IMG/VR virus record: IMGVR_UViG_3300022074_000470 | Span: 1-20,609 of that record | Direction: 5' to 3' (one strand) | Length of the DNA stretch: 20,609 bases | From: a virus | Part shown: positions 2,834 through 17,246 of the stretch, piece after piece | Position numbering within the stretch: position 1 is the first letter of the stretch | Layout of the letters: each line of letters starts with the position of its first letter | Program-made: the position numbers and the translations under genes | The notes under the pieces: generated by a model | Databases searched by the model: none | Seen by the model: the letters and a program-made list of their open reading frames with translations, nothing else | What the model was told of the DNA's origin: nothing

Positions 2834-4714
2834 TTATAATGCAATGGCAAATGCAATCCCTTGGGCTTCTGTTAAGCCTCCCCCTTGGGCACCCGTTGGA
2901 CCTACTGGACCTTGAGGACCTGCTGGGCCTTCTGGAATTGTAAAATCAAAAACTGCTGCGGATGTTGTACCCGAATTTGTTACTGAAGCACTTCCTCCAC
3001 TAGGCCCTATCGTAACAGTCCCTGCTGCAATTGTTGCAGCGTTTCCTGCTGGACCTTGTGCCCCTGTTGGTATTACGAAATCTAGTGTTGCAGCAGTTGT
3101 GGAACCACTGTTCGTAACTGCAGCACTCCCTCCAGCGGCTGCTGTGGTCGTTGTTCCAACGTTCACGGTGGCGGCTGTTCCTGCGGGACCAGGAGGAATG
3201 GTTATGTAGTTAGAGTAGGTTGTGGGGGTTGTATCAAACTGAAGTCTTGCTTCTGATGGATTGTTCGTATTTATCTCCCAACCCGCTACCCCTGTTCCCG
3301 TTAGCCCGGTGGCACCCGTGGGACCCTGCGCTCCCGTTGGACCAATTGGGCCTGCGTTTCCTGTCGATCCCGCCGGACCTGCTGGACCTTGTGAGCCTGC
3401 CGGACCTGTTGATCCACCAGGACCTGGAGGACCTTGGGGGCCTGTTGGCCCGATGGGACCTGCTGGACCTGTTGCTCCTGGTGCGCCGTCAGCCCCTGAC
3501 GGCCCAGATGGACCTGCCGGACCAATAGGACCCTGTGCCCCCGCTGCTCCCGTTGCCCCTGCTGGACCAGTTGCTCCTGCTGGACCTGCTACCCCCGCTG
3601 GACCTTGTGCCCCTGTGTCTCCTGCTGGACCTGTGATTCCTTGAATTGACATGTCCAAAACGAACTGCCAGTGATCACTAGTTCCAACGTTTCCTTGACC
3701 TGCTCCCTTGTACAAGTACAACCGGCCATACTCTGTGGCTGTGTCATCTCCCCCAATTACTGCAAATTGCCCCAACGCAATTCCAACGTTCGTGGTAGGA
3801 TCTGTATCAAACAGCAAATCTGATAAACTGTTGTAAATGTGGGCAATGTAAAAAGCCCCTGCTGTTGATCCTGCAATTCCCTGTGGTCCCGTTGGTCCTG
3901 TGTCTCCTTGAGGCCCTGATGGCCCCTGCTCTCCTTGTGGACCTGTCGGCCCCGCTGGTCCTATAGCTCCTGCTGGACCTGTGCTTCCAACATCTCCTGC
4001 TGGGCCTGCTGGCCCCACAGGGCCTTGTTCTCCAGTTGGCCCTGCTGGTCCAGTAGGACCTGTGTTTCCAATTGGTCCTGTCGGTCCTGTTGGCCCAATT
4101 GGTCCTTCGGGTCCCGTAGGTCCTGCTGGTCCCGTTGCACCAGTGGCTCCATCGGTGCCATCTGCACCTGCTGGTCCTGCAACTCCTGCGGGTCCTTGAT
4201 TCCCTGTGATTCCTTGCAGCCCTTGAGGACCTGTTGGTCCTGCTGGTCCCGCTGGTCCCGCTGGTCCTTTGATATTTGGAATTGTGTAAGTGAATCGATT
4301 TGGAAATCCAGTCAGCGCAATTGTATTTCCAATGCCAGCTTGGTTTCCTGACCAATAATGCGCGGTTGATGGGGCAGAACTTCCAACAGTAAACGTTAGC
4401 GTTGCTGAAGTGGGTGCAGATGAAAGGGCTTCAAATGCTGTGGCGAACGTAGCGTAAGTGTTGTAAGTCGTTCCGTCTATGTCGTAAACCACCCCTTCGG
4501 TGCTGCCAAAACCATTCTGATCTGCACGATTGCTGATGGCCAATAGATAGGCATTGTTGCCACCACCGTTAAACACACTGGAATCACTAAGGTCAAAAAT
4601 AAATATGTCATTCAGAACCCCTGTTAACGCTGGAGCTTCTTGGCCACTGCCTCCCGATAGAGTAAGTACAAAATCATTGTTACTGACAGTGACGGCGTAG
4701 GTATATGTAGCCAT
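2834..4714 (-). CDS. Collagen-like phage tail fibre with two Gly-X-Y tracts, 626 aa
   Basis: The layout is an N-terminal beta domain (about 1-149), an uninterrupted Gly-X-Y tract (about 150-284, roughly 45 triplets), a short globular insert (about 285-358, with [17 protein letters not shown] and YGRLYLYKG), and a second uninterrupted Gly-X-Y tract (about 359-477, roughly 39 triplets). A C-terminal region (about 478-626) follows, with two copies of a VTNSGxTxAAxxDFxIPxG module and a final collagen-like patch. Gly-X-Y tracts in phage fibres form trimeric triple helices, so this is probably a homotrimeric fibre shaft. The X and Y positions are rich in Pro, Ala and Thr. The start overlaps the previous stop as TAATG. 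Overlapping frames here are low-complexity shadows of the GGN-CCN codons. The fibre call is secure; the ligand is unknown. Confidence 0.9.
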
Positions 4715-7112: not shown

Positions 7113-9845
7113 TTATCCGTTTGAATTATACCCGATGAGCATGAACATTAAACTTGATGAACCAAAAGTTGAATTGATGGTCAATGTTTGATTCGTATTT
7201 TTTTCTAAATAAACTTTTTCAAAACTTCGTAAATAATGAATTTTGGAACCCGTGTATGTATTCCAAAAACTAGAACTTGTTGAATAGTGAGTAAGATAAT
7301 GCTTTATAGTAATGTAGTCTGTTAGATTTGATCTTAAATTTAATGAAAAATTACTGTTCGTTGTAGAACCATGTAAAGATATGTTCCAATGAATGTAGTA
7401 CCATCCATTTTCGGGTATTGTGATTTCGTTATCAGTTGTTGTAGCCCAGCCTGGATAACTATTGTTCGTGTAGCTATTTCTGGTTGAATAATAAATCGGA
7501 AATCTGCCTCCCGATTGAAAAGCAGAGAGACTTGGCACAATTTCACAGAAAACCCCATTACCAGGAGGGCCTGTTGGACCAACAGGTCCTTGAGGACCCT
7601 GCCCTCCTTGAGGACCATCGTTGCCTGCAGGACCTTGTATTCCTTCTGGGCCATCGTTACCAGCGGGTCCTTGGGGGCCTCGCAGGTCGTCTGTTGTAAA
7701 CCCTAGCCCATCATCTGAATTGAATGTGATGATTCCAGTGCTGCTATTGTAGGAAGCCCCTGTGAACCCTTTTCCATCAGCCCCAGAAGAACCATTGAGT
7801 GGGGTGTCAAACTCTCCTACGACTGTTTTTGCTGCGCCTGCAGCGTCATTTGAAAAACCAACAAGCAGTCTTTGTACAGACCTGCCACCTCCTCCAGGTG
7901 TGGCCAGAGTTGCACTTGCTAGCTCCAAAGATGTGACGCCACGACCTGTGTCTCCAGGTGCCCCAGGTGCCCCAGTTTCTCCCGTTGGACCAGGATTTCC
8001 TTGAGGACCTGTCGGAAGCGTTACATTCCCTGTGTAAGAGTTGTCCGATAGCTGGAATCGAATGGTGCTGGCATCTACAATATCCACTGCAGAAACACTG
8101 ACTCCCGCCGTGCCTGGACTTCCGTCGGCTCCGTCGGCTCCGTCAGCCCCTGCATTTCCATCGGCCCCTGCAGGACCTCTCACTGATTGAGTCGTCGTTA
8201 CCGTTGTTCCATCTGAAAACGTAAGAACTAGCTGACTGCTGCTATTGATTGATGCGGCTGTTGGAATGATCTTCGGAAGATTAACGTAGGAAGTGTAACT
8301 TACTGGAGTTGTGTCTAAAGCAAAGCGGACTTGCTCCGAATTGCTTGGGTTTACCTCAACGGCTGTAATGCTGGCACCATCAGATCCATTTGCCCCAGCA
8401 GGACCTGTGATCGTCCCAGTTGTTGTTAAGGTTGTTCCATTGTTTAACGTTAACTCCAACTGATTGCTGTTATTTACTGCAACCGATACGGCAGAAATAA
8501 CAGGGAGATTGATGCTTTGTGTGCTGGAGTCCGTGAACGTAAATGTTGCACTACTTGTCCCCTGCGGTTGGGTGATTGTACTGATCCCCACTCCCGCTGG
8601 ACCCTGCTGTACTAGCCCCACGTCTTGGTAAGTGATTACCAAAGACTCTGTGGCTGTATCAAAATCAATATTAACAATCCCTGGTCCCGTAGGACCTTGT
8701 GTGCCTTGTGGACCCTGCAACCCAACTTGCCAAGCAGTCCCATTCCAAACTTCTAGTTTCTGTGTGGTACTGTTGTAAATAATCGAACCTGTCGCTACCC
8801 CCGTCGTAGGTCTGGCTGATTCGGCATATGCTCCCAAAAACCTTGAATTGATACTGTCCGAAAGTTCTTGAGTCTTTTCCTTGTAGTGCAGAGCAGAGTA
8901 TCCAACGGTGGAACCATCAGACAAAGTAAATTGCGAATCTTCTGGATGGATTGCCAGCTTTTGAGCATCTGCCTCAGAATTGGTTGCGTTGGTTTCGGAT
9001 GTAGAAGCATTGGTTGCTGCTGTTTCTGCACTCGTTTTTGATGCCAACGCCTGTGTTGCGTATCCCTGTGCATCTGAAGAATGATTGGATGCTGAAGTTG
9101 CAGAACCTGCTGCTGCTGTCGCAGAAGTTGCCGCTTCACCAGCCTTTGTGCTGGCTTGATTTAAAGCACTGTTTGAATCTCCAATTGCTGTTGCGACTGT
9201 ATTAACATTCGCAATGTTCGTCCCAACTTGAGATATATTTGAACTTGCCCCTAACGCTAAATCGGTCCCAACAGTATTGACATCTGTCAGATTGTCATAC
9301 ACCCCTGTGATTTTACTGGTGCCACTGTTCAAATCTGTGGCAACCGTAGTGATTTGTGTGTCTGATCCTGCCACTGTGTTGATGTTCGGCATTGCCGTGT
9401 TTACAGCATCTACCGTTGTCATTTCCGCAGTAGTCAACGGAACTGCTTCCAAGATCAATTGGAAGTATGTTGTATTTGTAACAGCATACGTTCCTGACGG
9501 AAGATCTTGAATCACTACATACAAACTATTGTTTGCAGGATCACGAACAAGATCATCTACCTTGTAAGAAAACCCAGCAACGTAATCTCCTTGCCAATCT
9601 AGCCCTGGGGGAATCTCCCTTTCAAATACAAACAAATCCCAATAATCGTTGTTGCCATCCCCGCTAGGCAAGGCTTGATTTGCTGGAACTGACTGAGTTG
9701 CAATGTATAACCTGTTCCGAACGGAATCTCTGACAACGTCACGAACTACATAGGTATTGGAAGCGGCGTGTATCCCACGCCATTGCATCCCTGGTATACC
9801 CTGCGTTCCCTGACTCTGAACAATAACCTGTGCGCGAGTCGTCAT
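7113..9845 (-). CDS. Collagen-like tail fibre with C1q/TNF-like C-terminal domain, 910 aa
   Basis: Two tandem N-terminal modules (WRGIHAASNTYVVRDVVRD...LYIA at about 22-49 and WQGDYVAGFSYKVDDLVRD...LYVV at about 84-111) resemble short carbohydrate-binding folds. A helical Ala/Ser/Thr region (about 140-300, e.g. GEAATSATAAAGSATSASNHSS) is typical of podovirus fibre shafts. Then come short collagen-like patches separated by beta modules with SxQLxLTxxDGTTxTTT repeats, and a final Gly-X-Y run (about 723-763). The last 147 residues (IPENGWYYIHWNISLHG...SFEKVYLEKNTNQTLTIN...LMFMLIGYN) match the C1q/TNF-like jelly-roll pattern. This is probably a long trimeric fibre with a receptor-binding tip. Its ATG overlaps the upstream stop (ATGA). 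The fibre role is secure; the C1q-like fold is inferred from the strand pattern. Confidence 0.9.
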   Translation of the reverse strand: MTTRAQVIVQSQGTQGIPGMQWRGIHAASNTYVVRDVVRDSVRNRLYIATQSVPANQALPSGDGNNDYWDLFVFEREIPPGLDWQGDYVAGFSYKVDDLVRDPANNSLYVVIQDLPSGTYAVTNTTYFQLILEAVPLTTAEMTTVDAVNTAMPNINTVAGSDTQITTVATDLNSGTSKITGVYDNLTDVNTVGTDLALGASSNISQVGTNIANVNTVATAIGDSNSALNQASTKAGEAATSATAAAGSATSASNHSSDAQGYATQALASKTSAETAATNASTSETNATNSEADAQKLAIHPEDSQFTLSDGSTVGYSALHYKEKTQELSDSINSRFLGAYAESARPTTGVATGSIIYNSTTQKLEVWNGTAWQVGLQGPQGTQGPTGPGIVNIDFDTATESLVITYQDVGLVQQGPAGVGISTITQPQGTSSATFTFTDSSTQSINLPVISAVSVAVNNSNQLELTLNNGTTLTTTGTITGPAGANGSDGASITAVEVNPSNSEQVRFALDTTPVSYTSYVNLPKIIPTAASINSSSQLVLTFSDGTTVTTTQSVRGPAGADGNAGADGADGADGSPGTAGVSVSAVDIVDASTIRFQLSDNSYTGNVTLPTGPQGNPGPTGETGAPGAPGDTGRGVTSLELASATLATPGGGGRSVQRLLVGFSNDAAGAAKTVVGEFDTPLNGSSGADGKGFTGASYNSSTGIITFNSDDGLGFTTDDLRGPQGPAGNDGPEGIQGPAGNDGPQGGQGPQGPVGPTGPPGNGVFCEIVPSLSAFQSGGRFPIYYSTRNSYTNNSYPGWATTTDNEITIPENGWYYIHWNISLHGSTTNSNFSLNLRSNLTDYITIKHYLTHYSTSSSFWNTYTGSKIHYLRSFEKVYLEKNTNQTLTINSTFGSSSLMFMLIGYNSNG

Positions 9846-12177: not shown

Positions 12178-13236
12178 TTAAATGTCGGTTGCGCCAACTT
12201 CGATGCGGTAGAGATACAAATCCTGCAAAATTACGCAAGAATAGGTGGTGTCCCATGCAACCGTTCCTCTCTGTCCCAATGGATCGCCAGGGCCAGGTTT
12301 TGGAGTCACTACCTTGGATCGGAGTGAATCCTTACCACCCAACGTGGCACATCCACCGAAGTCTTGAGCCATTATCACAATTGGATACACGTCAATGTTC
12401 CCGCCGGTGGACTTTAGTCCCGTGGAACCTACTGATGCACCAGCACCCTTGAAAGGCATCGCCTGCGTAGTCAGGATGAAGCGGACTCCTCTTGCTGCCC
12501 CTACTTCTCCTTCCATCACATCGCTCTGGTCAGCGTATTGCTCTACCGGAACGTATCCAGGGATGGCTTCCAGATCCTGTCGCAGGTCCACATGACCAAT
12601 CGCTACGAAGGATTCGCGCAATGGGCTGGTGGTGACCCCATCGCTGGCGTCCAACTGCTCCTTGATCTTGGTGGCGTCATTGTTTTCCAGAACCCGAATT
12701 GCTCGGTCTAGCAAGGTCGTTGCGGCTGTACCAGCGGCAGCGTTCTTGTTCGCAATGGTGTAGTTTACGTCACTGCGTCCGGTGCTGCCGGTGCTGCGTG
12801 CGTAGCCTACCTGTGAGCCTGCTCGGAATTCCTTGTAGGAAATAAAATCAATAGTTTCACCTGCCTGCTGCGCTTGTCGCTCCGTGATCACTTGGACAAT
12901 CGGATCATGTGATGCTGCCAGCATGATATCGGTGGTATTTACATACGAACCGTACTGCTGCAAAACATGTTTGATTGTGGTGTGCTGGAGGTTTACGAAG
13001 TCTGGAGAAACGCCCTCTGCCAATGGGGTATCCACAATCGGGAAGCGTTCGTATCTTCGGTGCCTGATCTCCAAACCCTCTTTTTGTGGCTTGGTTTCGC
13101 GCTGGGCGAATTTTGCAAAGGTGAGTAAACGCTTCGCAATCGGAAGCATTCGTTTTTGGATGGTATAGGCGTCGTGCTTGCTAAGATCACCGTAAGATGA
13201 TCCCGAAAGCAGGCCGGTTCCTGCGTTAATAGCCAT
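12178..13236 (-). CDS. Major capsid protein, N4-gp56 family
   Basis: The sequence matches the N4-gp56 family of HK97-fold capsid proteins: LTFAKFAQRETKPQKEGLEIRHRRYERFPIVDTPLAEGVSPDF, then TIKHVLQQYGSYVNTTDIMLAASHDPIVQVITERQAQQAGETIDFISYKEF. The combination TPLxEGVxP, LxQYGxYVxxTDIxxxxxxDPIxxxxxExxxxQAGETID is characteristic. Length 352 fits the family. It forms the icosahedral shell, with scaffold encoded immediately upstream (13312-14325) and an accessory protein downstream. The ATG has AAAGGA nine bases before it. A stem-loop lies in the leader and another follows the stop, so the gene is bracketed by RNA hairpins. Confidence 0.93.
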   Translation of the reverse strand: MAINAGTGLLSGSSYGDLSKHDAYTIQKRMLPIAKRLLTFAKFAQRETKPQKEGLEIRHRRYERFPIVDTPLAEGVSPDFVNLQHTTIKHVLQQYGSYVNTTDIMLAASHDPIVQVITERQAQQAGETIDFISYKEFRAGSQVGYARSTGSTGRSDVNYTIANKNAAAGTAATTLLDRAIRVLENNDATKIKEQLDASDGVTTSPLRESFVAIGHVDLRQDLEAIPGYVPVEQYADQSDVMEGEVGAARGVRFILTTQAMPFKGAGASVGSTGLKSTGGNIDVYPIVIMAQDFGGCATLGGKDSLRSKVVTPKPGPGDPLGQRGTVAWDTTYSCVILQDLYLYRIEVGATDI

Positions 13237-13311: not shown

Positions 13312-14325
13312 CTAGACGGCGATGCTCTCCCAGAGTTCTTCGTCGTTCATATCCTCTGGTCTGCGTTCCTGCTGTCTAGGATTACTGTTTTTTAACAGGC
13401 CCTGTGCTGCCTTTCGGCGTACAGCACCTTGCGTCTCTTTTGGTGGTTCTTGCGATTCCACCGGCTGTTGCGTTGATTCCGTTGCTGGCTCTGATCGAAA
13501 CTTTTCCCGCCCTGCTTGGGTGTTGAGAAAGTCGTTCATCACTGCCGCATGATCCACGGGGTCCATCGATTCCGTCATCGCTCGTAAGCGCATGGGACTC
13601 GCATTGACGTATTCGTAAAACTCTGGACTCTTGTCGATGTCCATATAGTCATCCCCCACGTTCGTTCGCATGTGCGCTGCATGTTGCAGACGGTACTGAT
13701 TCGCCTTGTACTGCTGCGCGATCTCCTCCAGTTGCCCGATCCGGTCCTCTGGGACCTCCGGCATCTGAATGTTCTGTGTCGCCTTGGCAATTTCGTGAGC
13801 AATTAACTTTCGATACGCACTGGTCAGTTCTTGGAACTCGTCCAGCGTTTGCTTGGTGGCGGGGTCAAACCAGTCTTCATCCAGTGGCGTTGGACCCTTG
13901 GGCTTGGCTTCTTCCTGGGACGGCGATTCTGGTGTTTTTGCCTTCTCCAGTTGCCGCTCCATCTCCAATCGCTCCAGGCGTAACTGTTGGAACTGCTCCC
14001 GCAATTCCTTCGTCTCCTCGTTGCGACGGTGGAACTCCTTCTCCAAGTCCTTGTAACGCTTCTCGTAGTTATGCTCCTCCTTCTTCTCCTCGGCGGTTGG
14101 CTCAGAGGGTGCCTCTACTTCAAAGACCTCTGATTCCTCCTCTTCCTCGGTAGTGGAAGATGCTTCTACTGCGTCTTCACTTACGTCCTCCACCTCTGCC
14201 GGTGGTTTGCCAACTTGGTCCCATAACTGGTCGTCTGTCAACTCTGGAGCCGCAGGGCTTGTGTCCTCCATCTGGGGAGACAACCCCTCCGACGCCAAAG
14301 TCTCCTGTGCGGTAGACTCTGCCAT
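13312..14325 (-). CDS. Capsid scaffolding protein
   Basis: The protein is highly charged and helical. It has an acidic, low-complexity N-terminus (about 1-85), a long coiled-coil (about 83-130, NYEKRYKDLEKEFHRRNEETKELREQFQQLRLERLEMERQLEKAK), a helical central region (150-275) and a basic/acidic C-terminus. This composition and its position between portal and major capsid protein are the hallmarks of phage scaffolds. A short motif occurs at both ends: LTDDQLWDQV (29-38) and MNDEELWESI (326-335). Scaffolds of this type usually bind capsid through a C-terminal segment, so the end motifs may be interaction sites. The start has AAGGA five to six bases upstream. No protease domain is visible. Confidence 0.85.
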   Translation of the reverse strand: MAESTAQETLASEGLSPQMEDTSPAAPELTDDQLWDQVGKPPAEVEDVSEDAVEASSTTEEEEESEVFEVEAPSEPTAEEKKEEHNYEKRYKDLEKEFHRRNEETKELREQFQQLRLERLEMERQLEKAKTPESPSQEEAKPKGPTPLDEDWFDPATKQTLDEFQELTSAYRKLIAHEIAKATQNIQMPEVPEDRIGQLEEIAQQYKANQYRLQHAAHMRTNVGDDYMDIDKSPEFYEYVNASPMRLRAMTESMDPVDHAAVMNDFLNTQAGREKFRSEPATESTQQPVESQEPPKETQGAVRRKAAQGLLKNSNPRQQERRPEDMNDEELWESIAV

Positions 14326-14355: not shown

Positions 14356-14661
14356 TCAGGGTGCCCCATAATGGCTGGGATCTGAGTTTTGGCGTACTGC
14401 CTGTGGGTTCATCGGCAATCCAAGGATCTCCTGCATTGCCACCCGATAGCCCTGCAATTGGGCAAATTGAAGCCTCTTGGCTTCAGTATCAATGGTTGCG
14501 GAAACCAATTGCTCCTCCGTGTCTCTGATCGATTGGTGTAAATGCTGATACAGCACTTTCCAACCTGGAGAGTCCACTAAGGTGGAAATTAGTCTTGCGT
14601 CCATTTTGTTTGTGTTTCCTTCAAGTCGAATCCTACGCATGAACTTCGATTCGTAGACCAT
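14356..14661 (-). CDS. Small helical protein between portal and scaffold, 101 aa, unknown
   Basis: The stop codon of the portal gene directly precedes this ATG (TAAATG), so translation is likely coupled. The sequence is helix-rich: NKMDARLISTLVDSPGWKVLYQHLHQSIRDTEEQLVSATIDTEAKRLQFAQLQGYRVAMQEIL, with one probable coiled-coil. I do not recognise a named family. Small helical proteins in this slot are common in podovirus head operons and may help portal or scaffold assembly, but that is inference from position. Confidence 0.75.
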   Translation of the reverse strand: MVYESKFMRRIRLEGNTNKMDARLISTLVDSPGWKVLYQHLHQSIRDTEEQLVSATIDTEAKRLQFAQLQGYRVAMQEILGLPMNPQAVRQNSDPSHYGAP

Positions 14662-17004
14662 TTAATTCATTACGTTCGTTTGGTCATTCGCGGCTTCTTG
14701 ACGCTGCTGTGCCATCAACTGGCGGGGATTGTTCTCCCCACCTTGGGCCTGCTGCTGTGCCTGCTGTCCTCTCTGTTGTGCCAACTGGTTCAACTGCGCT
14801 ACCTGCGCCTGTCGCATCCGCTGCTGCTCCTGCTGTGCAGCTTCCATCGCCTGTGCTTGTGCCTGTTGCGCCTGCATCGCCTGCTGTGCCTGCGCCTGCA
14901 TCTGCTGCTGCTGCATCTGCTTCTGCTGTTCCTCGTTGATCAACATGCTCATTCCATAATAATCTGGGATCGCGTCCTTCAGTACATTCCCCTGCCGTAA
15001 CAACTCCATCCGCTCTTGGATCTGACTCTGGCGGATGTCCTCGCTTGCCGCCTTTTTTTCATCCAAAATGGCCTTCGTTGTTTCAAATTCGCTGCGTAAT
15101 TGGAGTTCCTGCTGCAACGATTGAATCTTCAACTGCTCCGCTTGCTCCGCTTGCTGGGCCTGCTGCTGCGTTAGCTGTTGCTGGGCCTGCTGTACCTCCG
15201 GCTCACTCTTGACAATTACCTCTGGGTCCAAGTTGAACGCTCTTACGAGCGGTTGTACGAACGCATCGTACCGGATGTAGTTCTGTAACTGCGGTAACTG
15301 GCCGATTGTTGATAAAAATTGGATGAGCTGCGTGTTGTGAACTTCCTTCGCTACATACTGCGTCCAGCCCGTACAAAGCGCCTCGTAGTCCCCCTTCAAA
15401 CTCATGTCCCCACTGTCTACCATCAACCATCGGTAAATCGCGCTGATGTTGCGGGTGATCATGTCTGATACCGAACGAACAATGTCCGCCGTTGTCTTGT
15501 TCGCGTTGGAATTTAGGATGGACATGCCCGTGGCCGTTCGCGTCTGCGAGGGGGACATCTCCCCATACCCAATTGCCGTCTGGCCACTGTCCAAATCCGC
15601 TTCCCGCTCCAACACTTGGATCAAATTGAGCAGCCCGTTCGTTACGTCTGGGATCACAATCGATGCGAATGCGTCCTGCACACTCATCCCACTGCGAACC
15701 TTAAATTGCTTTCCTGCGCGGATCGACTCCAAATCACTGCCACTTTCAAACGCGGCGGGGTTCACCACGGTCATTGGGACTGCACTCAGTTCTTTGCCCT
15801 CCACCAACATCGCATAAGAGAAATTGATCAGATGTTGAATGTCCCGTATCGCGTAGTAAATTCCATCGCCCCAGACACTTTCTGGGTTGCGCTGCCAGTA
15901 CGCAAAATCATACGGCTTGCGCCCATCGAACGGGTTGATTGCCATCTTGATTACCTTGTGGCCTACCACATGGCATACAATGTCCAACGTTCCCGTAAAG
16001 TCATCCTCTATCGGTAGATGCGCCTTCAAATCATCCGCATCCATCTTGCCCCAGAACTCCAGCACCTCAAATTTCTTCACACGGTGCGAGTTCGTCTCAT
16101 CCAACGTCTTCGGATGTTCGCTCTGGTCCTGCCCCTCGACACTGCCAATGTTGCTACTGATCACCTCATCGATGACCTCCGGTAGGAATCCTTCCTGCGA
16201 TTTGCCCAACTCCCTCAACTGGATGGAAGAAAGGAAACTCCGCTGGATGACATACTCCGCGTCATCGATGCTTGTTGCCTCCGGCGTTGGGAACACATTC
16301 CAAATGCTCACAAAGTCCACTGATGGAACCAACTCTGATTCAATCTGGGACTCTACCTGCTCCATAAACTGGCCCGTGTTCGGGTCCATCGTTCTCTTTG
16401 TCTCGTATACCGGATAATTTACATATTCCAGCATCGGACTTTTTGTGACACAGGTGCCGTACAAACAGAGTTCGTGGATGCTGTCGAGTAACGAATCCAA
16501 GTAGTGCGTCTGGTCCAACACATCCCTTATCCGGTCCTCCATGTTCTGCGCTCTTTGCTGCACTGCGTCCAGCAATTGATAGCCCTGCAAACCCTGCTGT
16601 ACCAAATCTGGTGGCAAGTACCTCGGCTTCCTTGACGGCGTTACCGAAAATGGGATTCTTCCATCGTCAAAGAGGAGACTGCCAATCTTCACCTTCGCAC
16701 TGTTCACCTTGCGGCGGGTCTGGTTGATGTAAATCCCCCGTCTTGCCGCTACACTCTCTCCTGCAGATGTGATCTTCTCAGGGTACTTCGCACGATACGC
16801 ATCATACGCATCCCGCCAGATTAATTCGTTCTCCTGACGGTACTCCTTACTCTTCTCAAACAACTCCCGAACCGCCTTGCCAATGTCGTCCAGCGGGGCT
16901 GTGATGACCTTGACCTCCACGGCAACAGCGGCATCTTCCTCCTCCAGATCTGGATCACCTCCTTCCTGGGCTAGAATTTCTTCTTCACTTGGGGCTACTG
17001 CCAT
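14662..17004 (-). CDS. Portal protein (head-to-tail connector), 780 aa
   Basis: The sequence fits large podovirus portal proteins: RRGIYINQTRRKVNSAKVKIGSLLFDDGRIPFSVTPSRKPRY near residue 90, then PYDFAYWQRNPESVWGDGIYYAIRDIQHLINFSYAMLVEGKELSAVPM, VLEREADLDSGQTAIGYGEMSPSQTRTATGMSILNSNANK and DMITRNISAIYRWLM. The last 170 or so residues are a Gln/Ala-rich coiled segment (QQQQMQAQAQQAMQAQQAQ) that may form a barrel-like stem as in P22-type portals. That comparison is inference. The ATG overlaps the stop of the HNH-like gene (TAATG), with GGAAGAAG upstream. The dodecameric portal would serve as the DNA channel, working with the terminase encoded upstream. Confidence 0.92.
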   Translation of the reverse strand: MAVAPSEEEILAQEGGDPDLEEEDAAVAVEVKVITAPLDDIGKAVRELFEKSKEYRQENELIWRDAYDAYRAKYPEKITSAGESVAARRGIYINQTRRKVNSAKVKIGSLLFDDGRIPFSVTPSRKPRYLPPDLVQQGLQGYQLLDAVQQRAQNMEDRIRDVLDQTHYLDSLLDSIHELCLYGTCVTKSPMLEYVNYPVYETKRTMDPNTGQFMEQVESQIESELVPSVDFVSIWNVFPTPEATSIDDAEYVIQRSFLSSIQLRELGKSQEGFLPEVIDEVISSNIGSVEGQDQSEHPKTLDETNSHRVKKFEVLEFWGKMDADDLKAHLPIEDDFTGTLDIVCHVVGHKVIKMAINPFDGRKPYDFAYWQRNPESVWGDGIYYAIRDIQHLINFSYAMLVEGKELSAVPMTVVNPAAFESGSDLESIRAGKQFKVRSGMSVQDAFASIVIPDVTNGLLNLIQVLEREADLDSGQTAIGYGEMSPSQTRTATGMSILNSNANKTTADIVRSVSDMITRNISAIYRWLMVDSGDMSLKGDYEALCTGWTQYVAKEVHNTQLIQFLSTIGQLPQLQNYIRYDAFVQPLVRAFNLDPEVIVKSEPEVQQAQQQLTQQQAQQAEQAEQLKIQSLQQELQLRSEFETTKAILDEKKAASEDIRQSQIQERMELLRQGNVLKDAIPDYYGMSMLINEEQQKQMQQQQMQAQAQQAMQAQQAQAQAMEAAQQEQQRMRQAQVAQLNQLAQQRGQQAQQQAQGGENNPRQLMAQQRQEAANDQTNVMN

Positions 17005-17246
17005 TACTGCTTCTTCCGGTTTGCCGTCTTGCTGATCACTCGCAAATTGCTCGGTTTGTTGTTTCGGGGGTTCCCGTCTCGGTGGTCTACTTCCTTACTC
17101 CGGTTCCCCTTCGTAAGGCGTCCCGCTCCCACCATGCGCCGACGGGCCTTGTTCCTTGCGGCACGGGCCTTCTTCTGCTCCGGTTTCGCATGAAACTGAT
17201 CATACTCCCTCCGGTAATTACGGACTCTTGGCTTTTTGGTCGTCAT
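17004..17246 (-). CDS. Small HNH-like protein, 80 aa
   Basis: A basic N-terminal half (KPRVRNYRREYDQFHAKPEQKKARAARNKARRRMV) is followed by EVDHRDGNPRNNKPSNLRVISKTANRKK (residues 52-79). The DHxDGNPxNNxxxNLRVxSxxxN string is the core of the HNH nuclease fold (DH at 54-55, Asn at 59, 62-63 and 67). No zinc-binding Cys pairs are present, and the protein is shorter than most free HNH nucleases. HNH proteins encoded beside terminase genes support cohesive-end cutting in some phages; whether this one does is unknown. It overlaps the preceding 53-residue ORF by 29 bases and the portal start by one. Confidence 0.8.
   Translation of the reverse strand: MTTKKPRVRNYRREYDQFHAKPEQKKARAARNKARRRMVGAGRLTKGNRSKEVDHRDGNPRNNKPSNLRVISKTANRKKQ

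Follow-up and report, generated by a model that had tools for sequence, protein, structure and literature searches.

Matching, co-varying tryptophan motifs at both ends of a probable internal scaffolding protein next to an N4-gp56-type major capsid protein

Scaffolding proteins evolve fast and are largely disordered, and their grip on the coat is known for few phages, where the site is C-terminal. The locus described here raises the question why a scaffold-like protein should carry the same short tryptophan motif at both of its ends, and which surface these ends could bind. The protein is encoded in the window, by which we mean the whole stretch of viral DNA analysed, 20.6 kb in length and occupied by a head-and-tail gene cluster on the minus strand. 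The genes for the portal protein, a small ORF, the scaffold-like ORF and the major capsid protein (MCP) follow one another in this order on that strand (Table 1). The score of the MCP exceeds the TIGR04387 cut-off, which identifies an N4-gp56-type head module, and the protein matches the capsids of N4 (9e99), B2 (9d82) and DEV (9bgn) by sequence and by fold.

Database searches with the scaffold-like ORF gave little guidance. A Pfam search revealed no fitting family, and only unnamed families were found among the PHROGs, the best being phrog_13678, for which no function is given; this family matches the scaffolds of vB_Pun_Y3 (E 3.6e-9) and ctsTn925 (2e-7), and weakly the window ORF (E 0.019). 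A fold search of the PDB returned no match at E ≤ 0.001, while several BFVD models named as scaffolding or capsid assembly proteins were found with weak E-values. In Stenotrophomonas phage StenR_269 the syntenic ORF bears the annotation 'scaffolding protein'. The AF2 model of the scaffold alone, computed with 36 alignment rows, is mostly helical and consists of an acidic disordered N-terminal tail, a long helix, a helical core and a C-terminal tail that is first basic and then acidic. Judged by its position, the annotation of one relative and the predicted helical fold, the ORF probably encodes an internal scaffolding protein. Elsewhere in the cluster, small ORFs occupy the same position as the 101-aa ORF in StenR_269, Rollin, ctsTn925 and N4-like phages; a small HNH endonuclease ORF (17004-17246, minus strand; HNH_3, E 5.8e-9) lies between the portal and terminase genes, and two collagen-like proteins with Gly-X-Y repeats (2834-4714 and 7113-9845, both minus strand) are perhaps tail fibres.

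Table 1. Position of the features discussed, and matching end pairs (N-terminal/C-terminal) of scaffold ORFs from other lineages.
Feature	Residues	Window position	Strand	Remarks
Portal protein, alternative partner		14662-17004	-	phrog_332 E 6.6e-45; phrog_1216 E 1.7e-25
101-aa ORF in the portal/scaffold gap		14356-14661	-	no convincing family match
Scaffold-like ORF, 337 aa		13312-14325	-	candidate scaffold, between portal and MCP genes
N-terminal motif LTDDQLWDQV	29-38	14212-14241	-	predicted helix 31-38 in disordered tail; W35 invariant
Long helix, probable oligomerisation coiled coil	87-130	13936-14067	-	AF2, block pLDDT mostly 85-95
Helical core	155-276	13498-13863	-	AF2, block pLDDT 65-96
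Basic C-tail helix	299-309	13399-13431	-	invariant R304 and A307; precedes C-terminal motif
C-terminal motif MNDEELWESI	326-335	13321-13350	-	predicted helix 328-336; W332 invariant
MCP, N4-gp56 family, proposed partner		12178-13236	-	TIGR04387 E 5.6e-69, 232.9 bits, cut-off 60
vB_Pun_Y3 end pair				DAAALFTTLAG/DPVQLFTHLAS
L201 end pair				YEDLFEEMYG/YEEMFDAMWG
L131 end pair				DAVSFFNEIS/DPVAFFNQIT
L340 end pair				DDFEAAFKEL/DDFDAAFEQF
L225 end pair				GGFEAGYAST/DPFEAGYKAA
Schitoviridae RD-1410W1-01 end pair				NMSDDEFMAL/NLSDEEFAKL

A preliminary description of the window, made from the sequence alone, had pointed out that the two ends share the form D-(D/E)-x-L-W-(D/E)-x-(V/I). Both motifs do fit this form, the second one ending two residues short of the C-terminus, and the likeness turned out to reach further than had been claimed. 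Among 50,721 non-overlapping pairs of 10-mers in the window protein, the two motifs are the top-scoring pair; their score was reached by 28 of 300 shuffles of the whole protein, and a comparison limited to the first 90 and the last 35 residues gave p = 0.022. The single window sequence would thus be modest evidence for twin motifs, which the homologues make firm. Here the motif reads [ST]-D-[DE]-x-[LI]-W-[DE]-x-[VIA].

As an initial search for homologues had used patterns that contain the motif and was biased, homologues were gathered through the MCP by reading the ORF just upstream of it, and were in this way not selected on the motif. The loci found by pattern (L001-L016) were kept in the pool, and the representative L003 stems from that search; its contig was also recovered by the MCP, as L018. 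The MCP was present in 369 loci, of which 345 had an upstream ORF of at least 140 aa (24 without one were left out); 25 of these ORFs were open at the 5' end, and the 320 that were 5'-complete included 253 distinct ones. Seven loci were dropped because the longest ORF in front of the MCP was another than the scaffold (L130, L280, L258, L262, L248, L252 and L282), which left 313. In two loci (L027, 4474-5801; L028, 6001-7328) the MCP match extends over 1328 bases for 352 aa, where 1056 are expected, so the capsid gene appears to carry an insertion of about 270 bases, perhaps an intron; in StenR_269 an ORF annotated 'intron homing endonuclease' directly precedes the MCP gene.

In 64 of 67 different, 5'-complete scaffold ORFs whose loci had been reached through the MCP, both ends hold a tryptophan preceded by a hydrophobic residue, E or Q. 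Two of the three exceptions reflect interrupted readings, an in-frame stop in L031 and a frame shift in L082, where the N-terminal motif stands in another frame, and only L122 truly does without it. Neither W35 nor W332 varies in any of the 36 rows of the alignment, even though rows of the wider clade have come down to 18-45% identity with the window scaffold. The N-terminal motif forms a conserved island in an acidic tail that is otherwise poorly conserved, its mean top-residue frequency (0.54 at residues 27-38) being higher than those of the stretches before (2-26, 0.30) and after it (39-80, 0.40); at the C-terminal end the values are 0.67 (324-337) and 0.24 (281-298). In a deep sister clade (L103-L117) both ends have shifted together, to EEIWAKI/QAFWNKL or RDELWAKL/KLAFWSKL. 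Conservation of both motifs, on which the preliminary description had staked its reading, is therefore what the homologues display, and not that of one motif or neither. L121 and L122 of the wider clade carry LTGEALFDAIE at the C-terminus with no N-terminal twin and are possibly one-handed scaffolds.

Next to distant N4-gp56-type MCPs, the scaffold ORFs mostly lack the LW motif and have a matching pair of their own instead (Table 1). The shape common to these pairs is a short acidic amphipathic helix in which aromatic or hydrophobic residues recur at intervals of three to four; the 10-mers are mostly acidic, with a mean net charge of -2.0 at the N-terminus and -1.4 at the C-terminus in 29 lineages. 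Three of the dropped loci (L280, L252 and L130) have twin ends in a reading frame further upstream of, or beside, the ORF that had been picked. A different kind of twin, between two proteins, was seen in the human-faecal phage contig L039, in which the N-terminal peptides of scaffold and MCP (the latter near 4381) are alike (LKKLHTHMFD and LKKLHTQMFD).

The resemblance of the two ends was then quantified across lineages by scoring the N-terminal 90 against the C-terminal 35 residues, own pairs being compared with swapped pairs, for one representative of each MCP cluster (57 clusters at 70% identity, 14 at 50% and 8 at 40%; MCP readings of 150 aa or less were left out of the clustering). Over the 57 lineages, own ends scored 31.3 and swapped ends 23.6 (z = 10.8; 0 of 20,000 permutations). 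Coarser clustering gave z = 3.7 for 14 clusters (10/20,000) and z = 2.2 for 8 clusters (374/20,000), and removal of the nine representatives with tryptophan at both ends left z = 9.3 for the finest clustering. The score of the N-terminus of one lineage against the C-terminus of another was 28.7, 26.0, 23.6, 22.1 and 22.5 as MCP identity dropped from 60-99% to below 25%, and a Mantel test of this score with MCP identity gave 0 of 2,000 permutations. Taken singly, 31 of the 57 representatives reached p ≤ 0.05, as against 11 of 57 swapped pairs, and 17 reached p ≤ 0.01. The 26 lineages that were not individually significant include L122 and a Firmicutes-type set (L039, L040, L363, L364 and L370), in which no convincing twin was found. 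The mere presence or absence of tryptophan at each end showed a borderline association across lineages (Fisher p = 0.056).

Several controls define what is special about the scaffold ends. Within the same 57 lineages, the N-terminus against the middle of the protein gave z = 3.2, the N-terminus against residues -95 to -60 gave z = 0.3, and residues 90-180 against the C-terminus gave z = 2.7; at 14 clusters the last control, with z = 2.8, is little weaker than the main test. Part of the effect may therefore be due to composition or to weak internal copies, yet the residual values near 3 are far below the main effect at 57 lineages. The ends of the MCP (z = -0.2, n = 56) and of the portal protein (z = 1.1, n = 47) showed no such twinning, while in the 47 loci of the portal control the scaffold ends gave z = 4.2. 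The ends of P22 gp8 (p = 0.51), T7 gp9 (p = 0.25) and lambda Nu3 (p = 0.55) were likewise without twinning. In the significant pairs, codons were shared at 91 of 215 identical residues, with 99.7 expected; as this is chance level, the ends are kept alike by selection on the protein rather than by recent copying of DNA. At the level of sequence, the twin motifs exist, are conserved and co-vary, and they do so at the ends of the scaffold and not at those of the MCP or the portal.

In the AF2 model both motifs are isolated short helices of lower confidence in tails that are otherwise disordered, as would be expected of docking peptides. Of the co-folding that the preliminary description had proposed, that with the MCP was approximated as a single chain by reading through the in-frame stop of the scaffold into the MCP (TAG as Q, TGA as W; 715 aa, 58 rows). 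The pLDDT of the N-terminal block was 57 in this chain and 61 in the scaffold alone, and that of the C-terminal blocks 70 and 72 as compared with 78 and 73. Judged by pLDDT alone, the read-through chain revealed neither a rise in motif confidence nor a sign of docking to the MCP, and it is uninformative as to the partner.

Which protein owns the surface was approached from the sequences of the candidate partners. Motif similarity follows that of the MCP (partial r 0.13) much as it follows that of the portal (0.11), with 0 of 1,000 permutations in both cases, so these data do not tell the two partners apart. Correlations of MCP columns with the motifs were weak, the highest being a nominal 0.20, with Y24, Q27 and K28 among the top nine, and are given no weight here. 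A third copy of the motif was sought in 19 other ORFs of the window, in 51 of 51 other CDS of Y3, 34 of 55 of ctsTn925 and 24 of 38 of DEV, the DEV stretch beginning at record position 30000, and no clear one was seen in the proteins examined from these four phages. The best match in another protein scored 20 in the window, 21 in Y3 and 22 in ctsTn925, compared with 32, 25 and 30 for the respective twins. A packaging tag of the T4 type was accordingly rejected for these three phages, in which the other proteins examined score below the twin. DEV does not discriminate, because its twin scores only 22 and other proteins up to 23. Residues 198-208 of DEV gp76, which is N4 gp55-like (L373, 30085-30750, minus strand), read PQLSEDELESL near the C-terminus and weakly resemble the DEV scaffold motif.

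From lineage to lineage the ends change together, as a shared surface would lead one to expect and a pair of different proteins would not, and it is from this co-variation that we infer a common binding surface for both motifs. By analogy with other scaffolds, the MCP would be its most likely owner. The reading that we prefer, and to which we give about an even chance, is that the ORF acts as an internal scaffold bearing the same docking peptide twice, once on each of its flexible tails, with both copies directed at a single surface, probably that of the MCP. The helical middle would associate with itself and leave the two tails free, each with a docking helix, and the inner face of the MCP is the most likely site of the surface that both copies would read. 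Such a bivalent scaffold could hold two coat subunits per molecule or grip one lattice twice; weak sites would add up during assembly and let go at maturation. Whenever the surface drifts, both copies would have to drift along, which would appear as concerted change across lineages. By analogy with P22, the C-terminal motif would be the coat-binding end, and the N-terminal motif would grip this surface as a second hand.

Among the alternatives, homotypic association survives best, although we regard it as unlikely. Here motif would bind motif, and the N- and C-termini of different scaffold molecules would join into rings or a lattice in which the capsid is not a direct partner. This main rival likewise predicts co-variation of both ends, and it agrees with the amphipathic character of the motifs, with their spacing of aromatic or hydrophobic residues, and with the P22 scaffold lattice, which is built through dimers of the base domain (PMC12005531). 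A contact of like with like is, however, disfavoured by the mostly negative charge of the motifs, and the AF2 monomer models keep the two as separate helices of lower confidence. Somewhat less probable still is a role of the N-terminal copy as a competitor or release peptide, which would enter the same pocket as the C-terminal copy and either displace it when the scaffold exits or mask it before assembly. The evidence for a same pocket is consistent with this idea, as is the acidic, unresolved N-loop of P22, implicated in release during packaging (PMC12005531); the two tryptophans are equally conserved, which would suit a grip as well as a competitor.

The preliminary description had suggested two docking sites and had named, as an example, the portal as partner of one motif and the capsid as partner of the other. 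Two terminal docking sites remain well in line with the findings, as both motifs are conserved and are predicted helices within disorder, but the division between portal and capsid is not favoured by ends that co-vary by lineage, and we consider it doubtful, slightly more so than a release peptide. In its favour, two docking-like motifs are conserved, motif similarity follows portal and MCP to much the same degree, and the P22 scaffold touches both portal and coat (PMC12005531). Two different pockets, however, would not keep the motifs alike and changing in step, and the portal contacts described for P22 come from the base domain, the C-loop and some hooks, with none described from the unresolved N-loop (PMC12005531). 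Finally, it is very improbable that the likeness has no common binding function behind it and stems from the acidity and low complexity of the tails or from repeated copying at the DNA level: the tails are indeed very acidic, shuffles occasionally reach the pair score and two controls lie near z = 3, but such generic amphipathic noise and DNA copying are largely refuted by the permutation, end-control and codon tests, together with the decay with MCP identity and the invariant tryptophans.

Bivalent docking to one surface, as preferred here for the window scaffold, might be shared by the majority of phages whose capsids are of the N4-gp56 type, the Schitoviridae among them: their 'two-handed' scaffolds would carry two lineage-specific peptides for one co-evolving capsid pocket and hold it by a bivalent grip instead of one C-terminal hook. 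To this generalisation we give slightly less than an even chance. No paper on paired end motifs of phage scaffolds was found in the open-access literature; the scaffolds described there have a single coat-binding site, at the C-terminus. Matching, co-varying ends would provide a sequence rule by which contact residues could be located in hundreds of phages, cultured or not, and this rule could flag scaffolds that are unnamed, such as phrog_13678, or misnamed, such as the 'tape measure' family phrog_2120. Whether the shell is held by one grip or by two becomes a question that two point mutants can address directly.

The comparison with known systems begins with P22 gp8. Like the protein described here, this internal scaffold is helical, and its gene directly precedes that of the coat protein. 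Its tails are flexible, its N-loop is acidic, and the module that binds the coat stands at the C-terminus (PMC12005531). The P22 hook binds the N-arm of the coat protein electrostatically, through basic residues (PMC12005531), and is the single one of its kind, at the C-terminus and with no N-terminal twin (p = 0.51), whereas the motifs described here are acidic and stand at both ends. A P22-type scaffold whose sole motif is C-terminal was considered and set aside, the N-terminal copy being conserved too. The authors of PMC12005531 remark that every scaffold in their comparison binds the coat through a C-terminal region. In the herpesvirus UL26/UL26.5 scaffold, a C-terminal stretch of 25 residues binds the major capsid protein; the likeness lies in this description, which gives a single C-terminal site for that scaffold (PMC12005531). 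The capsid targeting sequence of T4, too, is short and conserved; it guides proteins into the head during assembly (PMC3012670) and is common to several cargo proteins, while here the scaffold itself holds two copies and no clear third was seen in the other proteins examined of four phages. For DEV, scaffold density was sought, and none is described in the accessible text of the preprint (PMC10925440). A further parallel is offered by the N4 gp57-like proteins of the Schitoviridae (phrog_2120), which occupy the same position 5' of an N4-gp56-type MCP and have twin acidic ends of the MSDDEF/MSDEEF type. They differ in the type of the motif, form a separate group linked by blastp, and bear the database name 'tail length tape measure protein', as do the gp57-like proteins of L365-L369 in RefSeq and in phrog_2120. 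This name is a probable misannotation, as gene position and twin ends would fit a scaffold.
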